Part shown: piece after piece, positions 6,676 through 17,309 of the stretch
Numbering within the stretch: the first letter of the stretch is position 1
How the letters are laid out: every line of letters starts with the position of its first letter
IMG/VR virus record: IMGVR_UViG_3300025083_000273
Coordinates: 1-20,871 of that record
Reading direction: 5' to 3' (one strand)
Length of the DNA: 20,871 nt
From: a virus
The notes under the pieces: generated by a model
What the model was told of the DNA's origin: nothing
Database searches by the model: none
The model's input: only the letters and a program-made list of their open reading frames with translations
Program-made: the position numbers and the translations under genes

Positions 6676-8697
6676 ATGAGCCGCATCATTCAAATACAGA
6701 ATGACTTTACCGCTGGTGAGCTTGACCCAAAACTGCGGTCGCGTACTGACATCAGCCAATATAAGTCTGGCCTGTCAACTGCGCGGAATGTTAGCATCCA
6801 ACCGCAAGGCGGGGCAAAGCGGCGTGATGGTACTAAGTTTATTGCAGAGCTAGACAGCGGTGCCGGTGATGCGGTGCGGATGGTGTCTTTTGAGTTCAGT
6901 ATATCTGACAGCTATATGCTGGTGTTTACGCCCGGCAAAATGTATGTATTCAAAGACGGCTCGTTGATTACCAACATTAACAGCAGCGGCAATGATTTTT
7001 TAGCTGTGGCTAGTTTGACTAGCTCCATATTGCCAGAAATGAATTGGGTGCAGTCTGCCGACACAATTATTGTCGTGCATGAGGATTTGCCACCGACAAA
7101 GATTGTGCGTGGGGCTGGTGACAGCAATTGGACTGCCAGCACGATTAGTTTTGATTTTGTGCCTAAGTATGCTTTCACTTTAACTGTAACTGCCGGAAGC
7201 TCCTACAATACTGGTGTGCCACATGACCACCTAGAACCATCAGCTACATCTGGAAACCTTACACTAACAGCAAAGCACAGCGGGTCAGATGCAAATGAGT
7301 TTACTGACCCCGCCGATGATTATGTTGGGCAATATATCAACGTGACGCCATTTGGCCGGTTGCGGATTGTGCGCAAGGTATCAGATGCCAAGCTAGAATG
7401 TTTTGCCGAGGTGCCGCTTTTTGACACTGGCAACATTGATGATGCTGATTGGGAGCTTGAAGAGGGTTACGAGGATTCGTGGTCAGGTAGTAGAGGATAT
7501 CCGCGCAGCGTGACGTTTCACGAGGGCCGTTTATATTTTGGCGGCACGAAACAACGCCCATCAACTATCTTTGGGTCTAGGGTTGCGACCTTCTTTAACT
7601 TTGACCCCGGCGAGGCACTCGATGATGCGGCGGTTGAGGCAACACTCGACACCGGCACATTTAACGCAATTGTCGATATCTTTTCTGGTCGTCACTTGCA
7701 AATCTTTACGACTGGCGCAGAGTTCTATGTGCCGCAGACATTAGACACGCCAATCACGCCCAGTAACCTTATCGTCAAGCAGCAGACTGCGTTTGGCAGC
7801 AAGCCCGGCATACGATTGCAAAACGTGGACGGCTCGACCTTGTTTATCCAAAGGCAAGGAAAAGCGATACAAGAGTTTATTTATAGTGACGCGGTGCAAG
7901 CGTACACGTCAGCCAAGATATCTTTGCTGTCATCGCATCTGCTAAAGACGCCAGAGGAAATGGCGGTGCGTGTCGCAACGTCTACTGATGAGGGCGACCG
8001 TCTAATGCTGGTAAACGGCGAAGATGGCAGCATTGCCTGTTATACATTGCTGCGCAGTCAGAACGTCATTGCGCCGTCAGAGTGGACAACCGATGGCGAT
8101 TTTATCAATATCGGTGTTGACGTTGACGACATTTATGTTGTGGTAAAGCGCACGGTAAATAGCGCGACTGTTTATTATGTTGAGTTATTTGATCCTGCTG
8201 CGTTGCTTGATTGTTCGGTGACAGGCGGGGCTGCGGCGTCAGTGAACATGACGCACCTAGAAGCTAAAACAGTTAAGATTATCCGCGACGGCATCGTTGA
8301 GCCTGATCAAACCGTTCCGGCGTCACCGTTCACTGTTACCTTTGCCGCTGCGGCGGCTACAAGCCACGAGGTCGGCCTTAACTTTACGCCAGAGGTAAAG
8401 ACACTACCAGTCGAGCCAAACCTGCCGAGCGGCTCTATAAAGGGCTTTAAGAAGCGGATCTTTGAGGTAAACGCTGAGTTGTTTGAAACGCAGTCTTTAA
8501 CAATCGACAGCAAGCTAATCGCGTTTCGCCAGTTTGGCGCAAATGTGTTTGGCAGCGCGGTGCCTGAGTACACAGGCATCAAGACATTGCACGGCCTTTT
8601 GGGTTATACTTATGATGGGCAAATAACAATCGGCCAAGAGGTGCCATTAAAAATGACACTGCTAGGCATTGATTATAAAGTGAGCGTAGGACAGTAA
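6676..8697 (+). CDS. Tail tubular protein B (nozzle), T7 gp12-like
   Basis: A 673-residue protein (T7 gp12 has 794). It forms the hexameric nozzle below the adaptor and is the attachment site for fibres. The N-terminus shows the strongly conserved pattern NDFTAGELDPKL, DISQYKSGL, ARNVSIQPQGGAKRRDGT (residues about 9-50). A second conserved block, HEGRLYFGGTKQRPSTIFGS, lies at about residues 281-300, and WVQSADTIIVVHEDLPP occurs in the first third. The remainder is beta-rich, as expected for a nozzle propeller. It lies one base after gp11-like stop and one base before the gp14-like start. No enzymatic domain was recognised. Confidence 0.94.
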   Translation: MSRIIQIQNDFTAGELDPKLRSRTDISQYKSGLSTARNVSIQPQGGAKRRDGTKFIAELDSGAGDAVRMVSFEFSISDSYMLVFTPGKMYVFKDGSLITNINSSGNDFLAVASLTSSILPEMNWVQSADTIIVVHEDLPPTKIVRGAGDSNWTASTISFDFVPKYAFTLTVTAGSSYNTGVPHDHLEPSATSGNLTLTAKHSGSDANEFTDPADDYVGQYINVTPFGRLRIVRKVSDAKLECFAEVPLFDTGNIDDADWELEEGYEDSWSGSRGYPRSVTFHEGRLYFGGTKQRPSTIFGSRVATFFNFDPGEALDDAAVEATLDTGTFNAIVDIFSGRHLQIFTTGAEFYVPQTLDTPITPSNLIVKQQTAFGSKPGIRLQNVDGSTLFIQRQGKAIQEFIYSDAVQAYTSAKISLLSSHLLKTPEEMAVRVATSTDEGDRLMLVNGEDGSIACYTLLRSQNVIAPSEWTTDGDFINIGVDVDDIYVVVKRTVNSATVYYVELFDPAALLDCSVTGGAAASVNMTHLEAKTVKIIRDGIVEPDQTVPASPFTVTFAAAAATSHEVGLNFTPEVKTLPVEPNLPSGSIKGFKKRIFEVNAELFETQSLTIDSKLIAFRQFGANVFGSAVPEYTGIKTLHGLLGYTYDGQITIGQEVPLKMTLLGIDYKVSVGQ

Positions 8698-8698
8698 T

Positions 8699-9223
8699 AT
8701 GGCACAAGCACTTCCATTTATTATGGCTGGCTTAACCGCCGCGAAAATGTATTCGCAATTAAAGGCGGGGCAACAGCAAGCTAAAGGTCTGATGCGCCAA
8801 GCCGCATTTAAAAGAGTGCAAGCCAGATCTGAGGCTCTTAAATATAAACAGCAGGGCGTTGCAGTTATGGACAACATATTGCAAACCAAAGCGTCAATTA
8901 ACGCCCGCATCGCCGCTGGGGGGCTTGAGACATTTAGTGGAAGCGCTAAAGTTTTAGGTGTTATGGCCGAAGCTAAAGGCGCAAACGAACTTTACATTAG
9001 CCGTGATGGTGAGCAAATTGCATTTGGCACTGGTGAAGCGCAGGCAATGCAGTATGCGTCACAAGCCAAATCAGCGATGGCGGCTGGTAGAACTGCCGCG
9101 CTTGGCACTCTGACGAGCGCCGTGGCAGGGCAAATGGCTTTAGGCGGTGCGCCGGGTGGTTCAACAGGCGGCTCTTACCTAACAAATGCCGATGACGTTA
9201 TGGGCGCTGGTGGGGGCTTGTAA
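8699..9223 (+). CDS. Internal virion protein, T7 gp14-like
   Basis: A 174-residue protein (T7 gp14 has 196), small and Ala-rich, with long predicted helices. Pattern: hydrophobic MAGLTAAKMYSQLKAGQQQ near the start; a Lys/Arg/Gln helix; INARIAAGGLETFSGS in the middle; and a second Ala-rich helix with AMQYASQAKSAMAAGR before a Gly-rich tail. Members are stored in the head and ejected into the outer membrane first, where they form the entry channel. Position after gp12-like gene and before two large ejection proteins matches T7 order. The stop and next start overlap (TAATG). Family assignment rests mostly on this order plus size and composition. Confidence 0.82.
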   Translation: MAQALPFIMAGLTAAKMYSQLKAGQQQAKGLMRQAAFKRVQARSEALKYKQQGVAVMDNILQTKASINARIAAGGLETFSGSAKVLGVMAEAKGANELYISRDGEQIAFGTGEAQAMQYASQAKSAMAAGRTAALGTLTSAVAGQMALGGAPGGSTGGSYLTNADDVMGAGGGL

Positions 9224-10992
9224 TGGCAGAGCTACCAAAATACAGACCTTTAGGCGTAGGCATACCGTCAGTGCCGACTGTTGACTTTGTGGCGACAGGC
9301 GCAGCTAAAGCTCGCGCACTTGATGCTGTTACCAAAGGTCTTAACAGCATGAGCGATTATGTTTACAAAAAACAAGTTGCCCAGACACAGCGAGAGGCAA
9401 TGCAGTATGCGTTTGAAAACCCAGTAACCGCTGAACAAATTGAGCAAGCCCTCGCTGATGGCCGAGACATGAGCGAGGTTGTCGGCGACCCTGATACAGT
9501 GTTTGGCGCGGTGACGACTGCGGCCACAGCAACCCAGTTATCTACTGAGCTACAAACACAACTAACATCAAAGCTTGCTATCTATAATGGAATGATTGAG
9601 GGCGGCGATCCTAACTTTGACCCACAGTCTATGCGCAACGATTTAACGGCTATGATCACAGGTCATAGCGAAATAATCGCGGGTGTAGACCCGGAGGCTG
9701 CGCTAAAATACAACGCGACCGCAAACACACTATCTGCGGCCACATATAAATCAGGACTTGAACATAGCTTTAAAATAGCCCAAGCCCTCACAAAAGACCG
9801 GGCAAATGCAGAGCTTGATAAATTGCCTAACATTGTAAAGCGCGTTTTGTTAAACCACGCTGGCGACATTGGTGTTACTACCGGCACAATCGCTACCCAA
9901 TTAAAAGTTGCTAACAACGCAATCATTGAGACTGGTGATGCCGCATTTATAGAAAGCGCCGGAACTAAGATTAGGGATATTGTAACTGAGCAATATCAAA
10001 ACGTCCTAGCCGACTGGGCTGGGCAATCAAGCGCAAACACAAAGAGCGCCCTGCAAGGTAATTTTGGTGACAGGTTTACCAGTTTATATGGCATCCTTGA
10101 CGATAAAGAAAAGGCTGGTGTTCGCGACTTAGTTAGAAAACAGCGCGATGCTCGTATAGCTGATAATAAAGTTGCTAAAGACCTTGGCCTTGCTAACGCC
10201 AAAAAAGAAGTGCAGCGCATACAAACAAGGATGGCTGACTTAGCGCCTACTGCTTACCAAGGCGCAGATTATAATTCTGCTGTTGATCAGTTGCAGGCGT
10301 TAGCTATTCTGTATCCAGAGGCCGTAACACAATCATCTATTACATCGCTAGACAAAGCGCTTGATCCCAGCAAAGACCCCAAGTCGAACTTTGCTGGTAT
10401 GTTTGAATTAAAGCGCAGGGTTCTAAGCAACGAAATACAGACAATGGATGATTTAGAAAAGCAAGCAACGAACCTCGGCGTTGGCGCAAAAGATTATTAT
10501 TCAATTGTGCCGTTCTTGCAAACAGACGTAAAAGCAGAAGCAACAGCCGTTGATCGGATTATTCGGCGTAACGCTAAAATTGTTGATGGGTCAAATGCAA
10601 GCGAAAAACAATCCAAAGCGTATTTTAAGTTTGATAGAGTTTTGACCGAAAGACATGATGCAAAGATAGAAGAGTGGGAGCAAGGTGGAAAAGTTGGTAT
10701 AATGCCAACAAAACTGCAAACAGCTAAAGAAATTGACCTAGAGTATCGCCGCAGCGATGAGCAAAAAGATGTTAACAATGCTGTTGCAAACCTTGCCAGA
10801 GACTTTGGGCCAGGTGGCGCGCAAACACCTCTTAATATTTTAATTGACGAAGATACAACAGAACAAGACATAAAAGACGCTTTAATCGCTAAAGGTGTAG
10901 AAGGCCGGAAATTAGCTGCGCAACTGGATTTGGTAAAGTCTAGGATTAGCACTATGCAGCGGGCTGTTGAAAGAAGGGATGCTCTACGATGA
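9223..10992 (+). CDS. Internal virion (ejection) protein, T7 gp15-like
   Basis: A 589-residue, mostly helical, hydrophilic protein (T7 gp15 has 747). It begins with YRPLGVGIPSVPTVDF, a Pro-rich start common to these core proteins, followed by long helices (for example about residues 25-60, and the Lys-rich stretch around AKKEVQRIQTRMADLA). No catalytic motif, signal peptide or membrane segment is evident, as expected for the periplasm-spanning tube subunit formed after ejection. It overlaps the upstream gene as TAATG and the downstream gene as ATGA. The codon use in the second half is A-rich. Function is inferred from place in the T7-like order and overall architecture; sequence similarity to T7 gp15 itself is not apparent by eye. 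Confidence 0.75.
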   Translation: MAELPKYRPLGVGIPSVPTVDFVATGAAKARALDAVTKGLNSMSDYVYKKQVAQTQREAMQYAFENPVTAEQIEQALADGRDMSEVVGDPDTVFGAVTTAATATQLSTELQTQLTSKLAIYNGMIEGGDPNFDPQSMRNDLTAMITGHSEIIAGVDPEAALKYNATANTLSAATYKSGLEHSFKIAQALTKDRANAELDKLPNIVKRVLLNHAGDIGVTTGTIATQLKVANNAIIETGDAAFIESAGTKIRDIVTEQYQNVLADWAGQSSANTKSALQGNFGDRFTSLYGILDDKEKAGVRDLVRKQRDARIADNKVAKDLGLANAKKEVQRIQTRMADLAPTAYQGADYNSAVDQLQALAILYPEAVTQSSITSLDKALDPSKDPKSNFAGMFELKRRVLSNEIQTMDDLEKQATNLGVGAKDYYSIVPFLQTDVKAEATAVDRIIRRNAKIVDGSNASEKQSKAYFKFDRVLTERHDAKIEEWEQGGKVGIMPTKLQTAKEIDLEYRRSDEQKDVNNAVANLARDFGPGGAQTPLNILIDEDTTEQDIKDALIAKGVEGRKLAAQLDLVKSRISTMQRAVERRDALR

Positions 10993-13208
10993 CTGATGAT
11001 TTTGCAAGAGCGTTTGATGACAGGTTTGCGTCTAATGTTATGGTTGACACGCCGCCTGTTCTGCAAATCCCATCAATGGATACACCACCAGACCCAGTGC
11101 AGCCAGAGGCACCAGAGGTAACTGAAAAACAATTGTTGCTTGACCCGCAGTTTGCAGCAGCGGCGCGTGACGTGCATTTGCTGTTTGAGGGTGAGCCGTT
11201 TGAGGGTGACGATCAAATGGCGGCGCGCTACGGCATAGATGCAATCGGTGAGTTTAATTATAACTTTGCTGGCCCGGCTGGTATCCCCGGCGAAAGTGGT
11301 ATTAGCTCGCCCGGCACTATTGGTCAGGCAGCAGCGCTAATGACTAGCGGCTCACAAGATCAGGCCAAATCATTTGTTTACCTTATGGATCGTTATGATC
11401 AATTGCCCAACTTTACACTGGCTGGCACTGCTCGCATGATACGCGGTATGGTTGCTGACCCTAGCGTTTACACTGGCTTTGGTACATTAGGCGCTGGTTT
11501 CTTGGTTCGCAAGACTGGGGCTACTGGCATCAAAAAATTATTAGTTGAGATAGCAAAGCGCCCCGGCACGTCAGCCGCTGTATATACTGGCGTTGAAGCT
11601 GGGGCTGCCGATCAACTAACGCAGGGCGTTGAGCGCAAAGCTGGGATAGACATTGACCCAGCAACAGGCGCACTGCGCACTGCGTTGACTGCTGGCGTTG
11701 CTGGCACAATGGGTGGCGGTTTAGTCAAGGGCGGCGAGATGTTAGCGCGTGAACTTGGGCCTGCTATTGGTGACGTTATTAGCCAAGCTGGGCAGTCAGC
11801 CGAAGCGCGGATGGCCGAGCGCGGGCCTATTACTGACCGCGTTATGTCTGGCGCTGATCCTATGGAAGTGATTGACCCGGCGTTAGCTGCGGCTGGTAAG
11901 TTGGCTAGGGGTGGATCAACAGAAGCGCATCCAAACAGGATAGCAACAAGATTGCCAACAGCAGTTAGAGCAACAGAAAATCCCATAGATGAACCCTTGC
12001 AAATTGGTTTAGCTGAATCAAAAGCAGACCCGGTGCAATTTGAACATAATGTTAAAATTGTCCAAGATTACCCAAACATGACTGAGGCGCAATCACAGTT
12101 GCCCCCAGAGCAAGCGTCAGAAGAGTTCATAACTCATGTTAAAGATAATTTGCTTTGGATACACGACAAGATCCCAGATGAAACAAGGCAAAGATCAAAA
12201 CTATGGTATGACGGTGCGAGGGCTATAACTGACAAATGGTCTGCAAAGTATAATTTACCTGACGCATCAATAGCTGGCACTCTAGCTGCTTTGTCTCCGC
12301 AAATGGATTGGTATAAAAACGTCAGCCTTGCCGAGCGTGTTATTACAACGATGGCAAACCGTGATGTTCCTGCTAGTAAAGAGATGATTGCGTTTGCTAA
12401 ACAACTCGACCCTAAAACAAAAAAACCAAAACTGGCCGAAAAGTTTCAGCCAATAGTTGACGACATGCTTGGCAAAACCTTAAACGATCTTGATAGCCCA
12501 CTAAAAAGAGCTATATTTGTTCGTTTGTATGATGAGGTTAATAATCCAAGAACACACAATATTATTAGCCCAGAAGGCGATTTGATGGAAACTGTAAAGA
12601 GGGCTGACGGTTCTGAAGCTGGAACAGGTTGGGGCAGTTTTGTTGAAATAACCAAAGCTGTTGAGGCTGTTGAAAGTGGTGGGGATAAGGCTGTTCTAAC
12701 GCCATTGATGGGTACGCAGCACAAAGTGCGAAGTTTTTATAACAACATTCTCGACCCTAATGGGCCTAATGGTGATGTAACAATTGACACGCACGCAGTG
12801 GCCGCTGGCTTGTTAAAGCCCCTGTCAGGTCAATCAACAGAAGTGCATCACAACTTTGGCAGCGCCCCATCTATTGCACAAAGATCCGCGAACTGGAAAG
12901 GCGCAACAAAGAACTCTAGTGTTACTGGCGTTCAAGGGAATTATGGTCTTTATGCAGAAGCATATAGAAGAGCAGCACAAGAACGTGGTATTCTTCCAAG
13001 AGAAATGCAGTCAATAACTTGGGAAGCTGCTCGCGGGTTGTTTACAGATGTATATAAACGCGCCAAAAAAGATGGTGAATTTGTAAATGTTAAAGCAGTT
13101 GATGGTTTTTGGCAAAAGTACCGCAAGGGCGAAATGACTATAGATGAGGTAAGAGATGCAATCGAACAACACGCAGGGGGAATTAACCCCCCAACTTGGA
13201 AACAGTAA
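10989..13208 (+). CDS. Ejection protein with C-terminal DUF7178-like / DNA-glycosylase-like domain
   Basis: A 739-residue two-part protein. Residues 1-300: an acidic, Pro-rich start, then a module with LFEGEPFEGDD, YGIDAIGEFNYNF, MDRYDQLP and a Gly/Ala hydrophobic stretch (MVADPSVYTGFGTLGAGFL, about 154-172) like those in other phage internal virion proteins. Residues about 345-735: a different domain containing LSPQMDWYKN (435-444), GTQHKVRSFYNN (575-586), VTIDTHA (597-603), ITWEA and a helical end. I associate this domain, from memory, with DUF7178. The spacing of K579 and D600 parallels the catalytic Lys and Asp of HhH-GPD glycosylases (endonuclease III K120/D138). Arginine codons shift between the two parts, from about 3 of 16 AGA/AGG to about 14 of 22. 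It overlaps its upstream neighbour as ATGA. Confidence 0.78.
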   Translation: MTDDFARAFDDRFASNVMVDTPPVLQIPSMDTPPDPVQPEAPEVTEKQLLLDPQFAAAARDVHLLFEGEPFEGDDQMAARYGIDAIGEFNYNFAGPAGIPGESGISSPGTIGQAAALMTSGSQDQAKSFVYLMDRYDQLPNFTLAGTARMIRGMVADPSVYTGFGTLGAGFLVRKTGATGIKKLLVEIAKRPGTSAAVYTGVEAGAADQLTQGVERKAGIDIDPATGALRTALTAGVAGTMGGGLVKGGEMLARELGPAIGDVISQAGQSAEARMAERGPITDRVMSGADPMEVIDPALAAAGKLARGGSTEAHPNRIATRLPTAVRATENPIDEPLQIGLAESKADPVQFEHNVKIVQDYPNMTEAQSQLPPEQASEEFITHVKDNLLWIHDKIPDETRQRSKLWYDGARAITDKWSAKYNLPDASIAGTLAALSPQMDWYKNVSLAERVITTMANRDVPASKEMIAFAKQLDPKTKKPKLAEKFQPIVDDMLGKTLNDLDSPLKRAIFVRLYDEVNNPRTHNIISPEGDLMETVKRADGSEAGTGWGSFVEITKAVEAVESGGDKAVLTPLMGTQHKVRSFYNNILDPNGPNGDVTIDTHAVAAGLLKPLSGQSTEVHHNFGSAPSIAQRSANWKGATKNSSVTGVQGNYGLYAEAYRRAAQERGILPREMQSITWEAARGLFTDVYKRAKKDGEFVNVKAVDGFWQKYRKGEMTIDEVRDAIEQHAGGINPPTWKQ

Positions 13209-13347
13209 CCCAGTTATTGAGTTGCTTAAAGAATATGGCATCCCTGTTAACAGGGAAAACTATTTACAGTTGGCTTATCTTGGCGAGCCGCCAGAAGAGT
13301 TAAGCGCAGAGGAAGAGCTAGAACTGCCAGAACAGTTACGAAATTAA
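13156..13347 (+). CDS. Small acidic hypothetical phage protein (overlapping start)
   Basis: A 63-residue protein whose first 53 bases lie inside the end of the preceding gene in another frame. ATG 13156 is preferred because GAGG (13146-13149) precedes it by six bases. The part outside the overlap reads VIELLKEYGIPVNRENYLQLAYLGEPPEELS and an acidic C-terminus (segments VIELLKEYGIPV, NRENYLQLAYLG). A 'LLKE.GIPVTRENYL.LAY.G.PPE' pattern recurs, from memory, in small phage proteins between internal virion genes. No function is known. It ends ten bases before the large ejection protein, with AAGGA between. Confidence 0.75.
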   Translation: MQSNNTQGELTPQLGNSNPVIELLKEYGIPVNRENYLQLAYLGEPPEELSAEEELELPEQLRN

Positions 13348-13357
13348 GGAATAAACA

Positions 13358-16300
13358 ATGGCAATACGCGGCCCAAGAGATTTAGAAGATAAGCTCGACC
13401 AGCTTTCCAAACAGGAGCCGGATGCCGACCTGACTGATGACGGCATCCAGCCTGCTGGTTTTGCCCGGTCATTAGGCCGTCAAGCCGCTGGGGAAATTAT
13501 CAAGCCTCTAACAAAGCGCGGTGCGCGTGTTGATCCTGATTACAAGGTAACAGAAGAAATAACAAAGCCGGTTGACGTTATTGACCAAGACGGCACTGCC
13601 ACAGATATTATGGACATTCAGCCGCCTGTTGAGGCGCAAACAAAAATAGAGCCGCAAATTGTGCCGCCTATAAAAAAGCCAAAGCCATCAACAGAAGAAC
13701 GTGTCGAAGAGGTGATGGCCGAGCGTCAAGAGGCTATGGGTGGTGCGCGCACAGTGCCATCGCCCAGCAAAAAGCAGTTAGCAGAGGGCGTTGAGGCTGG
13801 CCCAATTAACACTAGCTTTTATGATAGCGATAGTTTAGCAGCAACAGCTAAGGCTGTGGCCGGGAATACTGAACCTGACTATCAAGCTCAAACAGTTGAG
13901 AGCTTATATAGACGCGCCTTTATGTCTGGCGTTCCTAAGAAAACATTAGACGCAATGTTTCGCGGCATACCAATGCAAAGCAAGGTTGGCAACAACCAGT
14001 TAGCGACACAGCTTGCTGGATTGCAGGCACTGCATGATGTTAGCGCACAAAAGGTTGATGAGCTTATGACGCAGGCTGCGTCTGGCCTTCTAACTGACCT
14101 TGGCAAGTTTGAGTTGCGCGAGGCTTTGTCGCAGCATGAGGTAATCCTTGGCACGTTAAAGGGCGCAAAGCGTGACGTGGCTCGCAGCATGAATGTGTTT
14201 AAGGGTGCGCGTGAACGCAATCTGCCATCGCTCGACATCCGCGCCGTTCTTGACGGCGCTGGCGGCGATGATCAATTGCGCGCCCTAGCTGACAATTACA
14301 TGAAACAAGAAACCCGCGCTGCCAAAAACAAAGTCCTTGAGGTCGGCATTATCCGCAAAACATATGACAGTATCATTTATGCGGCGCAGTCTACGTTCCT
14401 GACTAACTGGGAAACGCATCTGTTCAACAGTGCCGCTAACTTTGGAACGCTAATCGCTGACGTTCCAGAGCGCGCCGTTGCTGTTCCAATTGGCAAGGTA
14501 AGAAAGCGCATCGCAAAAACACTGGGGCTAGAGTACAGCCCGGATGAGTATTACCGTCAGGACATTTACGCCAGAACATCTGCATTTTATAACGGCATTA
14601 TGGATGGTTGGTCGTTAATGTCTCAAGGCGCAAAGACAGGGTCAACAAAAGACGCGGCGCGCAATCCGATATCATCTGCATATTTTAGCAACACGCCCCT
14701 GATGCTGCTTGGCAAAGAGGTGGCTAGAACGCCAGAGTTAAAGAACACGCTGGCTGGGAAAGTGCTTGATAGCTTGGGGATGATTTACTCAATCCCTATG
14801 CGCGCCCTTGGTGCTGGCGACCAGTTCTTTGGTGGTATTGCGCAGCGTATGGAATTGCACGAGCAGGCTTGGCGTTACGGCGCGCAAATATATGACAAGA
14901 AGCTGGCCGATGGCGGTACAGCAGATGAGGCGCTGTCTGTTTCACAAGAGGCCGTAAACAAGTTTTTGACTGAGCGTCCAGCAGAGGTTGACGCTAGTGT
15001 ACAGAGCTTTAGAAAGCAAGCGACACTGATGGCCGACATTGACCGGCAATCAAACCTTGGCCGTATGTATCACGGCGCGCTCAAGGTTATGAACAACCCG
15101 CTAGTCAAACCGATCATGTTGTTTAGTAAGTCAGTCACAAACCTAGCCATTGAGGGCGCGGCTCGTGTGCCTATTTTAAACTTTATGTCGCCACGCTTTT
15201 ACAGTGAGTGGGAAAAGGGTGGCAGGCACCGTGACCTAGCCATTAGCCGTATTGTTGTCGGCGGCACTATGGGTCTTGGCTCTTACTATCTAGCTTACAA
15301 CGGCAGGCTCACTGGCGCAGGCCCGGCAGATACAGAGGACAGAAACAATTTAAAGCGCATTGGTTGGCAAGATTTTAGCTTGCGCCTAAACAATGACGAG
15401 ATGTCGGATGAGAATATTGATCGCATAAATAAAATTCTTGGCGCTGGTACAATTCAGCGCGGCACCGGCAATATGGAGGGCAGCACGTTTATGTCATTAA
15501 AGAGGCTTGAGCCGGTGACAATACCATTGCTGCTTGGTGCTGCTTATGCCGACGCTGTTAAATACCGCGCCTATGATCCAGACGACACGCAGCTTAGTAT
15601 TATGTTTGACGCAATGGCTGCGGCACTGTCTGAGTATTCCACTAATATGCCAGCGATGCAGTCAGTAAACGAGCTAATGCGTATTGCCAACCAGCGCCAG
15701 ACAGACAGCGGTGACAGGATTTATGCTGCGGTTGATGCTTATGTGCGTCAGGTGAGCAACGTGGCTATTGCTGGAACGCCTGTGGTTGGTTTAGCTAACA
15801 GCGCAATTGTTGGCAAGATTGAGCGCATACTAGACCCGGCTGCAAGTAACACAGCAGTCAATCAAGCGCAGGTAGAGTGGGCAGATGATGTGTTGGGAAT
15901 TGACGCAACGCAGCTTGGTGTTCGCGCTCTCTTTGAGGCTTATAATAAAATGATGAGCCGAGTTCCAACAAAGGCAAACAAACTGCCGCCAAAGTTAGAC
16001 GAGCGCGGCAAGCCTATTGAATATAGCCCTGATTATTCTTGGGTGCCTATGGCTATGCAAAAGGGAAAACGTGACGAGGTGTCTGAGATTTTAGCGGCGA
16101 TTAATCACGGCATTGCGTATCCAAACTTTGAAATCAATGGTGTTGGCCTGACGGCAGAGCAACAAAATATGTATTTAAAGTTGCAGCAAGACCCAGACCC
16201 TGACACCGGGATGACAATGGATGAGGCTATTGTTGACGTTATAAACCAGCGCCTCAATGACGCTGATCTGCTTGGCATTGCCCCGGCGATTGGCTCATTG

Positions 16301-16498
16301 CAAAATGACGTTAACACTGTGGTGTCTGATTATCGGGCTAGAGCGCGAGAGTTTATGTTTGGCAAAACCATCAAAGATAGAGACACCGGGCTTGTTGATT
16401 ACACATTAGAGACAGATGACGGCACTGCTATTCTTTACCCAGATACGGCAGCGGCAATTGCTAAGAACCAGCAAAAGGTCAATCTATACGGCAGGTAA
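13358..16498 (+). CDS. Large internal virion (ejection) protein, T7 gp16 position
   Basis: A 1046-residue protein, the largest complete gene here (T7 gp16 has 1318). Residues 1-135 are Pro, Lys, Asp and Glu-rich and probably disordered. The central 330-640 part holds recognisable ejection-protein segments: FLTNWETHLFNSAANFG, a long helical region, PIMLFSKSVTNLAIEG, and a hydrophobic Gly-rich segment near residues 628-645 (RIVVGGTMGLGSYYL), likely membrane-active. The C-terminal third has WVPMAMQKGKR and a helical end. In T7, gp16 crosses the inner membrane and carries a lytic transglycosylase at its N-terminus; no SLT-type motif is seen here. AAGGA (13346-13350) is seven bases before the ATG. 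A TAA ends the unit, followed by a 40-base gap. Confidence 0.82.
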   Translation: MAIRGPRDLEDKLDQLSKQEPDADLTDDGIQPAGFARSLGRQAAGEIIKPLTKRGARVDPDYKVTEEITKPVDVIDQDGTATDIMDIQPPVEAQTKIEPQIVPPIKKPKPSTEERVEEVMAERQEAMGGARTVPSPSKKQLAEGVEAGPINTSFYDSDSLAATAKAVAGNTEPDYQAQTVESLYRRAFMSGVPKKTLDAMFRGIPMQSKVGNNQLATQLAGLQALHDVSAQKVDELMTQAASGLLTDLGKFELREALSQHEVILGTLKGAKRDVARSMNVFKGARERNLPSLDIRAVLDGAGGDDQLRALADNYMKQETRAAKNKVLEVGIIRKTYDSIIYAAQSTFLTNWETHLFNSAANFGTLIADVPERAVAVPIGKVRKRIAKTLGLEYSPDEYYRQDIYARTSAFYNGIMDGWSLMSQGAKTGSTKDAARNPISSAYFSNTPLMLLGKEVARTPELKNTLAGKVLDSLGMIYSIPMRALGAGDQFFGGIAQRMELHEQAWRYGAQIYDKKLADGGTADEALSVSQEAVNKFLTERPAEVDASVQSFRKQATLMADIDRQSNLGRMYHGALKVMNNPLVKPIMLFSKSVTNLAIEGAARVPILNFMSPRFYSEWEKGGRHRDLAISRIVVGGTMGLGSYYLAYNGRLTGAGPADTEDRNNLKRIGWQDFSLRLNNDEMSDENIDRINKILGAGTIQRGTGNMEGSTFMSLKRLEPVTIPLLLGAAYADAVKYRAYDPDDTQLSIMFDAMAAALSEYSTNMPAMQSVNELMRIANQRQTDSGDRIYAAVDAYVRQVSNVAIAGTPVVGLANSAIVGKIERILDPAASNTAVNQAQVEWADDVLGIDATQLGVRALFEAYNKMMSRVPTKANKLPPKLDERGKPIEYSPDYSWVPMAMQKGKRDEVSEILAAINHGIAYPNFEINGVGLTAEQQNMYLKLQQDPDPDTGMTMDEAIVDVINQRLNDADLLGIAPAIGSLQNDVNTVVSDYRARAREFMFGKTIKDRDTGLVDYTLETDDGTAILYPDTAAAIAKNQQKVNLYGR

Positions 16499-16507
16499 TA
16501 AATAGGC

Positions 16508-16513
16508 TATAAT
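16508..16513 (+). promoter_or_regulatory. Possible -10 element before the fibre genes
   Basis: A perfect TATAAT lies in the 40-base gap before the fibre gene and would start transcription about 19 bases before its ATG. The -35 region at the right distance matches only three of six bases (TATACG, 16485-16490), so this is a weak candidate. Confidence 0.3.
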
Positions 16514-16538
16514 CACGGCAACCATATGAGGCACAAAA

Positions 16539-17309
16539 ATGGCTGACTATAACATCAACGCAATTACACGCAGGGTCGTGTTTACCGGGTCAGCCGGTCT
16601 GGGGCCGTATGCGTTTTCGTTTGAGATATTGGCTAACACCGACATCGTTGTTTATTTTAACGCAACCAAACTGACACTGACCACAGATTTTACTGTCACT
16701 ATAAACGCTAATGGCACTGGTTCAGTTACACTGATTGTTAATGTTGGGGGCAACATACCGGCCACGCCAACAGCATCTGATCAAGTTGTTGTGATTGGTG
16801 CGCGAGACATTGAGCGCGTGACAGACTTTGTGACAGCCGGTGACTTGCTGGCATCGAGCCTTAATGAGCAGCTAGACGCGCTGACAATTTTTGATCAACA
16901 GGTTGCAGAAGAAAACAGGCGCGGCCTCCGCGCCCCTGTCTATGACCCTGCACTGGTTGAGGATGGCGGTGTTGTTGATATGACATTGCCAGCAAAGGCT
17001 GACCGGGCGCTAAAGTTTCTAGCGTTTGACAGCAACGGCAACCCAATCGCCACAACTACGGCTGGCGACTTTAGAGGCACTTGGGCAGCGGGCGTTGATT
17101 ATTTTGCTGGTGATCTAGTTATTGACCCAGACGATAACAATGTTTATCGCGTTAATACAGCGCACACATCTGCTGGTGCAGTTCCTCTAAACACAAACAC
17201 AAACAGCGCAAACTATGACTTGTTTGTAAACATATCTGCGGCGCAAACTGCTCTGATTGAAAGCATAGCGTCTCAATCCGCTGTAGAATTTTCACTAATC
17301 TTAGGATAG
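16539..17309 (+). CDS. Tail fibre anchor protein, T7 gp17 N-terminal domain-like
   Basis: A 256-residue protein. Residues 1-150 match the N-terminal domain that anchors T7-type fibres to the tail: RRVVFTGSAGLGPYAFSFEIL, VVYFNATKLTLTTDFTV, then VIGARDIERVTDF, SSLNEQLDALTIF and the ENRRGLRAP turn. Residues about 178-230 form a small module with WAAGVDYFAGDLVI and NVYRVNTAHTS, which looks like a chitin-binding/CBM5-12-like carbohydrate-binding fold often found in phage fibres. No long triple-helical shaft or tip follows, so it is an adaptor stub whose distal parts are on separate proteins. GAGG at 16528-16531 is seven bases before ATG. Role: attaches the receptor-binding complex to the nozzle. 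Confidence 0.88.
   Translation: MADYNINAITRRVVFTGSAGLGPYAFSFEILANTDIVVYFNATKLTLTTDFTVTINANGTGSVTLIVNVGGNIPATPTASDQVVVIGARDIERVTDFVTAGDLLASSLNEQLDALTIFDQQVAEENRRGLRAPVYDPALVEDGGVVDMTLPAKADRALKFLAFDSNGNPIATTTAGDFRGTWAAGVDYFAGDLVIDPDDNNVYRVNTAHTSAGAVPLNTNTNSANYDLFVNISAAQTALIESIASQSAVEFSLILG

Follow-up and report, generated by a model that had tools for sequence, protein, structure and literature searches.

A glycosylase-like domain in a probable ejection protein

The window analysed here, the whole 20,871-nt virus record IMGVR_UViG_3300025083_000273, carries at 10989..13208 the gene of a 739-aa protein, probably an ejection (internal virion) protein, and this raises the question of what such a protein would bring into the host cell. 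Its open reading frame (ORF) is made up of a constant head, a junction and an exchangeable payload, the long DUF7178 domain (residues 309-739, 11913..13205; all features given here lie on the plus strand), in which a first-pass annotation had noticed a pattern of residues like that of DNA glycosylases of the HhH-GPD type. We argue that the last 430 residues form an N-glycosylase belonging to the HhH-GPD structural superfamily, with Ogg2 as its nearest relative, built into an ejection protein and injected with it, and for fold, delivery and catalysis taken jointly we put the probability at roughly 0.68. The argument starts from what was established directly, namely the gene, its conservation, the predicted fold, the profile link between the family and Ogg2, the exchange of cassettes and a co-conserved small gene.

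As had been suggested, the C-terminal half of the protein belongs to DUF7178 (PF23802; E 1.3e-26, 94.2 bits against a curated cut-off of 27 bits), and the 739-aa protein matches phrog_3842 with E 1.9e-28. The three motifs are where they had been placed: LSPQ at residues 435-438 (12291..12302), which alignment and DSSP put in a loop between two helices, LMGTQHK at 573-579 (12705..12725) and TIDTH at 598-602 (12780..12794), each occurring once in the translated ORF. A loose regular expression, written after the pattern had been seen, matched 1 of 20,000 shuffles of the protein; conservation is the stronger test. In a non-redundant alignment of 36 rows, the window and 35 relatives that are 37-70% identical to its protein, all 36 rows match DUF7178, and K579, D600, H602, S436, P437, Q674 and W678 are among the invariant residues. 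A larger long-form set (114 ORFs at 112 loci, with many near-duplicates and with some contigs present twice; counts are of ORFs covering the site) keeps K579, D600 and H602 in 108/108, Q674 in 107/107 and W678 in 105/107, and the standalone relatives, a short form of the family, keep K and D in 91/91, H in 88/91 (Trp in the other three) and Q and W in 90/90. The Ser and Pro of LSPQ are near-invariant across long and short forms, and its Gln varies: a few long forms have Thr or Arg in its place, and Arg, Asn, Thr or Leu occur in short forms. Both the position and the conservation of the pattern noticed in the first pass are thus confirmed, the putative catalytic pair being invariant in every long and short ORF that covers it. 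We regard K579 (12723..12725) as the predicted active-site lysine, from its invariance and its helix position in the model, and D600 and H602 of D600-T-H602 (12786..12794) as the predicted catalytic aspartate and a predicted phosphate-contacting histidine, from their invariance and from the D-x-H match of the standalone relatives described below. Q674 and W678 of Q674-S-I-T-W678 (13008..13022) would be the base-reading pair, from their conservation and their register on OGG1 and Ogg2.

Predicted fold and relation to Ogg2

Residues 310-739 were modelled with AF2 (AlphaFold2; predicted local distance difference test (pLDDT) 93.3, predicted template modelling score (pTM) 0.91), and a standalone relative was predicted separately (pLDDT 94.2). 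Structural realignment of the long model to its 1000 best chains (VIA-align) gave MjOgg2 as the top match (Z 9.5, root-mean-square deviation (rmsd) 3.6, 184 of 206 residues) and as second best the queuosine enzyme DUF2419, which we take to be a glycosylase-fold protein (Z 8.3, rmsd 4.8, 225 aligned); AGOG (Z 7.7), OGG1 (6.2) and MUTYH (5.9) were also found, the next unrelated row reached only Z 3.4, and above background (rows of Z at least 4.5) there were HhH-GPD proteins and DUF2419 only. The short model, for which the best 50 of 220 chains with Z of at least 2 were listed, matched SsOgg2 (Z 12.8, rmsd 3.7, 177 of 207 residues), MjOgg2 (Z 12.8, rmsd 3.3, 170 of 205 residues), endonuclease III (Z 10.7, rmsd 3.3, 168 aligned), AGOG (Z 10.1), Mag2 (Z 9.2) and OGG1 (Z 9.0), and all 50 of the matches listed were HhH-GPD proteins. 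Foldseek with the short model against PDB found Ogg2 and AGOG chains at probability 0.98-1.00 (E 0.018-0.20), and every match of probability at least 0.98 among the 50 listed was AGOG or Ogg2; a search of BFVD with the long model recovered the standalone phage proteins (e.g. S-CBP42, E 6.4e-6). By DSSP of the model, K579 is the second residue of domain helix 269-279, right after a shortened hairpin, and D600 is domain residue D291, directly after which helix 292-299 begins; in the model this is the placement expected of the HhH-GPD catalytic pair. The DUF7178 domain is accordingly predicted to have a two-lobed, all-helical HhH-GPD fold, and the first-pass interpretation as a domain of HhH-GPD type finds support in both predicted fold and conservation.

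At the level of sequence profiles the long and short DUF7178 forms are one family (hhalign, E 3.2e-27). When 44 short-type sequences, one of them cut out of the Rctr197k polyprotein, were aligned with 17 archaeal Ogg2 sequences (taken from the 28 PF22175 matches listed, fragments and weak matches being left out), hhalign gave probability 89 and E 2.3e-6 over 67 columns, pairing D-x-H with D-x-H and Trp with Trp; a first, smaller short set had given probability 49 and E 1.7e-4. Once gaps were trimmed and the larger set of short sequences was used, 0/250 column-shuffled and 0/250 block-shuffled decoys reached this score. The short form gave no signal against the endonuclease III, MutY and AlkA groups (endonuclease III, probability 0.8). 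The comparison with endonuclease III from which the first-pass annotation had started holds for the superfamily fold and for the order of LSxQ, K and D-T-H, but the closest relatives are Ogg2, AGOG and OGG1 instead.

The last helix would extend this likeness to the base-reading pocket. In the long model the aligned ranges end with domain residue 375 on OGG1 325 (374 on 324 in mouse) and with 374 on MjOgg2 203, and in the short model with 195 on OGG1 325 in most such rows and with 194 on 203 of both MjOgg2 and SsOgg2. If the last helices are ungapped, Q674 and W678 fall on Q315 and F319 of OGG1 and on D194 and W198 of Ogg2. Gln315 of OGG1, Asp194 of Ogg2 and Asp218 of AGOG are described as equivalents, and Phe319, Trp198 and Trp222 as stacking on 8-oxoguanine (PMC3397491); the Q-x-x-x-W register had been noticed before these equivalences were read there. 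DUF7178 keeps a Trp in register at the Trp198 position of Ogg2 and has at the Asp194 position a Gln, as in OGG1. A C-terminal lysine of Ogg2, K207, is reported to read N7-H of 8-oxoguanine (PMC9638937). On the modelled register, Q674 and W678 are predicted to form a base-reading pair of the OGG type.

A number of results weigh against this assignment. Pfam PF00730 (HhH-GPD) matched 0/36 members at E<=5 and nothing in the window record, and NCBIfam and PDB sequence searches of the domain gave nothing useful. Foldseek with the long model returned no significant PDB row, the top probability among the 50 listed being 0.33 for AGOG 1xqp; with the short model the E values are weak (best 0.018, none <=0.001), and Z values below ~13 can, according to the tool's own note, arise by chance among helical bundles. 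It is the exclusivity of the match lists, and not Z alone, that supports the fold. The long form alone gave no hhalign signal with Ogg2 (probability 0.5), nor with the endonuclease III, MutY and AlkA groups, so that the Ogg2 link runs via the short form. In a first decoy run with untrimmed gaps 0/300 column-shuffled and 3/300 block-shuffled decoys exceeded the real score, the three having implausible scores of ~134 over 7-25 columns, and two of the OGG1 rows listed for the short model (9fnu, 6rlw) have the end of the range two residues further on (197). The objection already raised in the first pass, that GVG of the hairpin is replaced by GTQ, was well founded: the GxG hairpin (G-[VI]-G-x-K) is absent, with GTQHK in the window and mostly G-x-K without the second Gly in short forms, and when the hhalign match is extended, K lies one residue off the Ogg2 lysine (F is at K+4 here and at K+5 in Ogg2). 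Because of the altered hairpin and this offset, residue-for-residue equivalence of K579 with the OGG lysine is called likely and not more; AGOG too is described as having a deviating hairpin, yet equivalent catalytic residues (PMC3397491). As the GxG hairpin is absent and enzyme activity is predicted only, we place DUF7178 as a separate family which carries the HhH-GPD fold and is a predicted enzyme.

Exchange of payloads on a constant head

The head comprises residues 1-270 (10989..11798) and the junction residues 271-308 (11799..11912; AEARMAERGPITDRVMSGADPMEVIDPALAAAGKLARG), the latter being common to different heads and payloads. On contigs from four IMG datasets (our loci L009, L010, L011 and L057) window 8173-11911 aligns at 86% DNA identity, alignment is lost over 11912-13356, and it resumes at 91% over 13357-17222. 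Over residues 1-308 their proteins share 97-98% identity with the window protein, while the payload is a very divergent DUF7178, which Pfam recognises with E 3e-9 in L239, on the same contig as L009. L004 is the reverse case, in which the cassette (window 11786-13366) aligns at 96% on a different head; over window 9552-11785 only 67 nt align, and in the next gene three short pieces only, at 67-68%. A scan with the head alone found 19 loci, two of them cut by contig ends, whose payloads, as far as the ORFs were read, are of several kinds. Besides loci with the window's payload or the divergent DUF7178, L249 carries an unrelated 486-aa payload (P4, 5821-7278), on which Pfam and PHROG gave no confident match; L250-L253 have a short payload (P5, e.g. 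L251:5700-6185) on a related head (39%), L254:887-1756 is a near head-only ORF of 290 aa that stops about where payloads normally begin, and L244 and L246 (L246:5919-6320) have an extra module of ~130 aa between the junction and a window-type or divergent payload. The DUF7178 domain is thus an exchangeable payload, with a constant head, a junction and a swappable C-terminus as in polymorphic-toxin-like delivery. Domain swapping between ejection proteins has been described for a peptidoglycan hydrolase (PMC8954989) and internal virion protein genes are described as mosaic (PMC10386132); in the literature searched, by titles, abstract openings and some passages, no description of a DUF7178-type payload was found.

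Some further observations were made on these cassettes. In L016, which shares its contig with L244, a second copy of the junction end AGKLARG follows the extra module, which suggests cassette stacking. P4 (L249; L255-L334) is a second large exchangeable payload, which also occurs within ORFs as long as 3,033 aa, and its 23 non-redundant members share G..NK..SF..L..G..D....DR; it resembles HhH-GPD by eye only, hhalign to Ogg2 gave probability 2, and no such assignment is claimed. Nor do we claim P5 as an ADP-ribosyltransferase (ART), which GPGVYF and QEAVIWD resemble by eye: Pfam is silent on L251, and with BLAST no match to the ART-PolyVal region of L064 was obtained.

A small overlapping gene in the +1 frame

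The 3' end of the payload is overlapped by a small gene in the +1 frame (13156..13347), which encodes an acidic protein of 63 aa with net charge -9, a candidate partner or antidote of the payload. A homologue lies in the +1 frame within ~450 nt in 34/36 alignment rows, L071 having it on the opposite strand and L061 none; the hidden Markov model (HMM) used was made from ten seed segments, nearly all from rows then counted, which match by construction. It was found at 64/74 long-form loci, at 14/18 bacterial-genome loci and in 1/3 named long-form phages, and at 0/91 standalone, 0/80 P4-payload, 0/10 divergent-payload and 0/41 host glycosylase loci; the ten long-form misses are eight loci at a contig end, L019 with its P4 payload, and L061. 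In 15 rows the main frame runs on for >250 aa beyond the domain into a polyprotein and the +1 frame is still kept, with amino-acid identity of 0.41 against 0.23 in each other frame, in an alignment that was built on the small gene's own frame and favours it; less affected by this is the pattern of nucleotide identity by codon position (0.53, 0.62 and 0.36). The small proteins have a mean net charge of -5.9 (-5.4 without L058), two rows being at +2, and the Pfam search of the small protein gave no match.

In our view this is a genuine overlapping gene that goes with the long module, and its product may be the antidote of the payload. The small protein may be made by a programmed +1 frameshift in place of a separate start, though an upstream ATG is present in 34/34 small-gene rows. 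A role as mere translation coupler of the next structural gene is disfavoured, because the small gene persists within polyprotein linkers. In L058, near 3688, the small +1 protein reads on into a 417-aa frame, a fusion that may offer a clue to its role.

Genomic neighbourhood

The 739-aa ORF lies between two genes of internal virion protein families, phrog_418 upstream (8699..9223, E 5e-9) and phrog_6651 downstream (13358..16498, E 1.7e-15), the latter a protein of 1046 aa whose position would be that of T7 gp16. Directly upstream, a 589-aa protein with no confident family in Pfam and PHROG (9223..10992) would stand where gp15 does in T7. Further upstream in the block is a tail/nozzle-type protein (phrog_376; Phage_nozzle E 0.0014), and downstream of the 739-aa ORF a protein matching tail and tail-fibre families; the block presumably resembles the ejection-protein block of T7-like phages. 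Because the gene sits between internal virion protein families, its product is probably an ejection protein, stored in the virion and injected. Hydropathy of the head shows two mildly hydrophobic Gly/Ala stretches (~residues 155-173 and 228-246), and a PHROG search of head plus junction gave no match.

Elsewhere in the window, at 666-1142, a small GNAT-like protein also matches internal virion families (phrog_308 E 2.5e-9, phrog_4177 E 1e-19; Pfam Acetyltransf_1 at E 0.08 only). Between its gene and a 536-aa ORF at 2053 lies a small basic ORF of 91 aa (1366-1641; KRRGRRAGRRG), possibly DNA-binding.

Distribution of the family

The standalone DUF7178 protein, of ~200 aa, matches 156 phage records (GenBank/RefSeq duplicates included), whose hosts include Mycobacterium, Streptomyces, Gordonia, Microbacterium, Roseobacter and cyanobacteria. 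Examples are S-CRES3 gp63, SIO1 gp9 and 9515-10a gp9, identified by Pfam, and mycobacteriophage Sheen gp85, by tblastn and alignment. In 11 contexts no immediate neighbour of the standalone gene is annotated as structural, most neighbours being hypothetical. A few of these records are annotated as glycosylase, DNA glycosylase or N-glycosylase/DNA lyase, so the resemblance had already been noticed by annotators, and two others as glycosyltransferase; the name DUF7178 was not found in the literature searched, and a PADLOC search gave nothing useful. ORFs containing the long module reach 3,354 aa, and in one of them ART-PolyVal scores above its cut-off; giant phage proteins combine DUF7178 with an ART-PolyVal or InPase domain.

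In cyanophage 9515-10a (L231) the standalone gene is found near that of the phage RNA polymerase and two genes away from one annotated as DNA methyltransferase. The polyprotein of virus Rctr197k (L081), 2,039 aa in length, combines two copies of DUF7178 with domains of inorganic pyrophosphatase and 2H phosphoesterase type, and it matches ParB weakly. Standalone and long forms co-occur in 0/37 records, among which Rctr197k has two copies in one ORF and one 138-kb contig has two long ORFs; given possible fragments and a low prior, mutual exclusion is not claimed. Spread by plasmids was likewise set aside, with 2 Bradyrhizobium records only.

Proposed function and alternative explanations

From the above we propose a location in the virion, delivery, catalysis and a substrate for the payload as follows. 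The DUF7178 protein would be stored in the particle and enter the host along with the genome. A target base would then be flipped into the pocket, with W678 stacking on it and Q674 reading its edge, which points to a guanine-type base, perhaps oxidised or otherwise modified; D600 would drive cleavage of the glycosidic bond, K579 would attack C1' or position the base, and H602 would hold the phosphate. In the producing cell the small gene product would keep the payload silent. The most likely role is that of an injected effector which targets DNA at the onset of infection, either in attack on host or rival DNA or in counter-defence, as the exchange of payloads and the presence of a dedicated partner speak for an effector more than for repair alone. 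In its widest and more speculative form, the ejection proteins of these podovirus-like phages might be a polymorphic effector system, in which one head and a conserved junction carry interchangeable enzyme payloads, the OGG-type payload attacks the DNA or a modified base of the new host, the tiny acidic protein encoded in the +1 frame over the payload 3' end, kept even in giant polyproteins, is the antidote, and the standalone copies are this weapon in a version produced once the phage has entered.

Repair of the oxidised DNA that the phage itself brings in would also suit the pocket, and comes a close second to the effector role, only slightly behind it. The same injected enzyme would clear 8-oxoguanine accumulated in the free particle, and other phages would make the standalone version after entry, a tentative proposal with which the Ogg2-like fold and base-reading pair predicted by the models agree, as do the long form in the seawater Roseobacter phage CRP-738 (gp40) and the annotated pyrimidine-dimer glycosylase that S-CRES3 has besides its standalone gene. 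Repair, however, needs neither swaps with unrelated payloads nor a dedicated small partner, and the standalone form is also found in soil-isolated phages. An unlikely alternative is a nucleotide or nucleoside N-glycosidase like DUF2419, an enzyme of queuosine salvage, which could break down signalling or modified nucleotides. DUF2419 ranks second among the structural matches to the long model, and signal-targeting enzymes have been suggested among injected polyvalent proteins (PMC7824862), but the matches listed for the short model include nothing besides DNA glycosylases and homologues of these, the invariant Lys and Asp suit DNA glycosylase/lyases, and the profile match is to Ogg2.

We also consider it improbable that the glycosylase fold is put to a non-catalytic use, as DNA-binding or channel-lining domain, in the way of the glycosylase homologue Mag2. 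Ejection proteins are described as binding DNA and changing shape (PMC8954989), the hairpin is altered, and Mag2, which the title of its report connects with sculpting DNA at abasic sites, is among the matches; invariance of Lys, Asp and Gln, and near-invariance of Trp, across very divergent sequences would be unexpected for a mere binder, and standalone and polyprotein forms exist. Least probable, and disfavoured, is a superficial resemblance, that is, an all-helical domain merely looking like HhH-GPD. The weak Foldseek E values and the middling Z that helical bundles often reach would allow it, but two separate models list only HhH-GPD proteins and DUF2419 above background, and the sequence profiles agree, with the motif residues aligned. 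An injected N-glycosylase thus remains our preferred explanation.

As far as the literature was searched, what is new is an assignment of the family that goes further than the record annotations, together with the setting of delivery, the cassette and its partner gene. If true, this explanation would supply the chemistry of a phage family that lacks an assigned function, add the chemistry of DNA bases to the repertoire of injected phage enzymes and demonstrate payload cassettes in ejection proteins, and the co-conserved overlapping gene makes the toxin-antidote idea testable with two small genes.

Comparison with known systems

Among characterised enzymes, Ogg2 (MjOgg, SsOgg, TmOgg) and AGOG share with DUF7178 the all-helical HhH-GPD fold, here predicted, a likely equivalent K, the D-x-H and, on the modelled register, the last-helix Trp; unlike them, DUF7178 has a shortened hairpin without GxG, a Gln, as in OGG1, and not an Asp four residues before the Trp, and a long form of ~430 aa with an insert and extensions which is built into a probable ejection protein. 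Endonuclease III has the same superfamily fold and the order LSxQ, K and D-T-H, but it scores below Ogg2 in structure and gave no match between profiles. The standalone DUF7178/phrog_3842 proteins belong to the same family and keep K, D, Q and W, but have ~200 aa, a gene of their own and no +1 partner (0/91). Free HhH-GPD genes are known in phages, as in Streptomyces phage Sf3 gp35 (PMC5336643).

With regard to delivery, polyvalent proteins are described as injected effectors (PMC5512222), and the long module is likewise found in giant ORFs, whereas the window protein is of two parts, a head and a payload; no glycosylase turned up in a search of the main text of that paper. In the mosaic ejection proteins domains swap likewise, and no glycosylase cassette with a partner gene is described in the parts of that report that we cite (PMC8954989). 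Phage T4 Alt is a virion-stored, injected ADP-ribosyltransferase (PMC5512222), the chemistry of which differs from that predicted for the DUF7178 payload. Brig1 is a DNA glycosylase in phage-host conflict, but it is encoded by the host and directed against modified phage DNA (PMC11078745), whereas here the predicted glycosylase is encoded by the phage.

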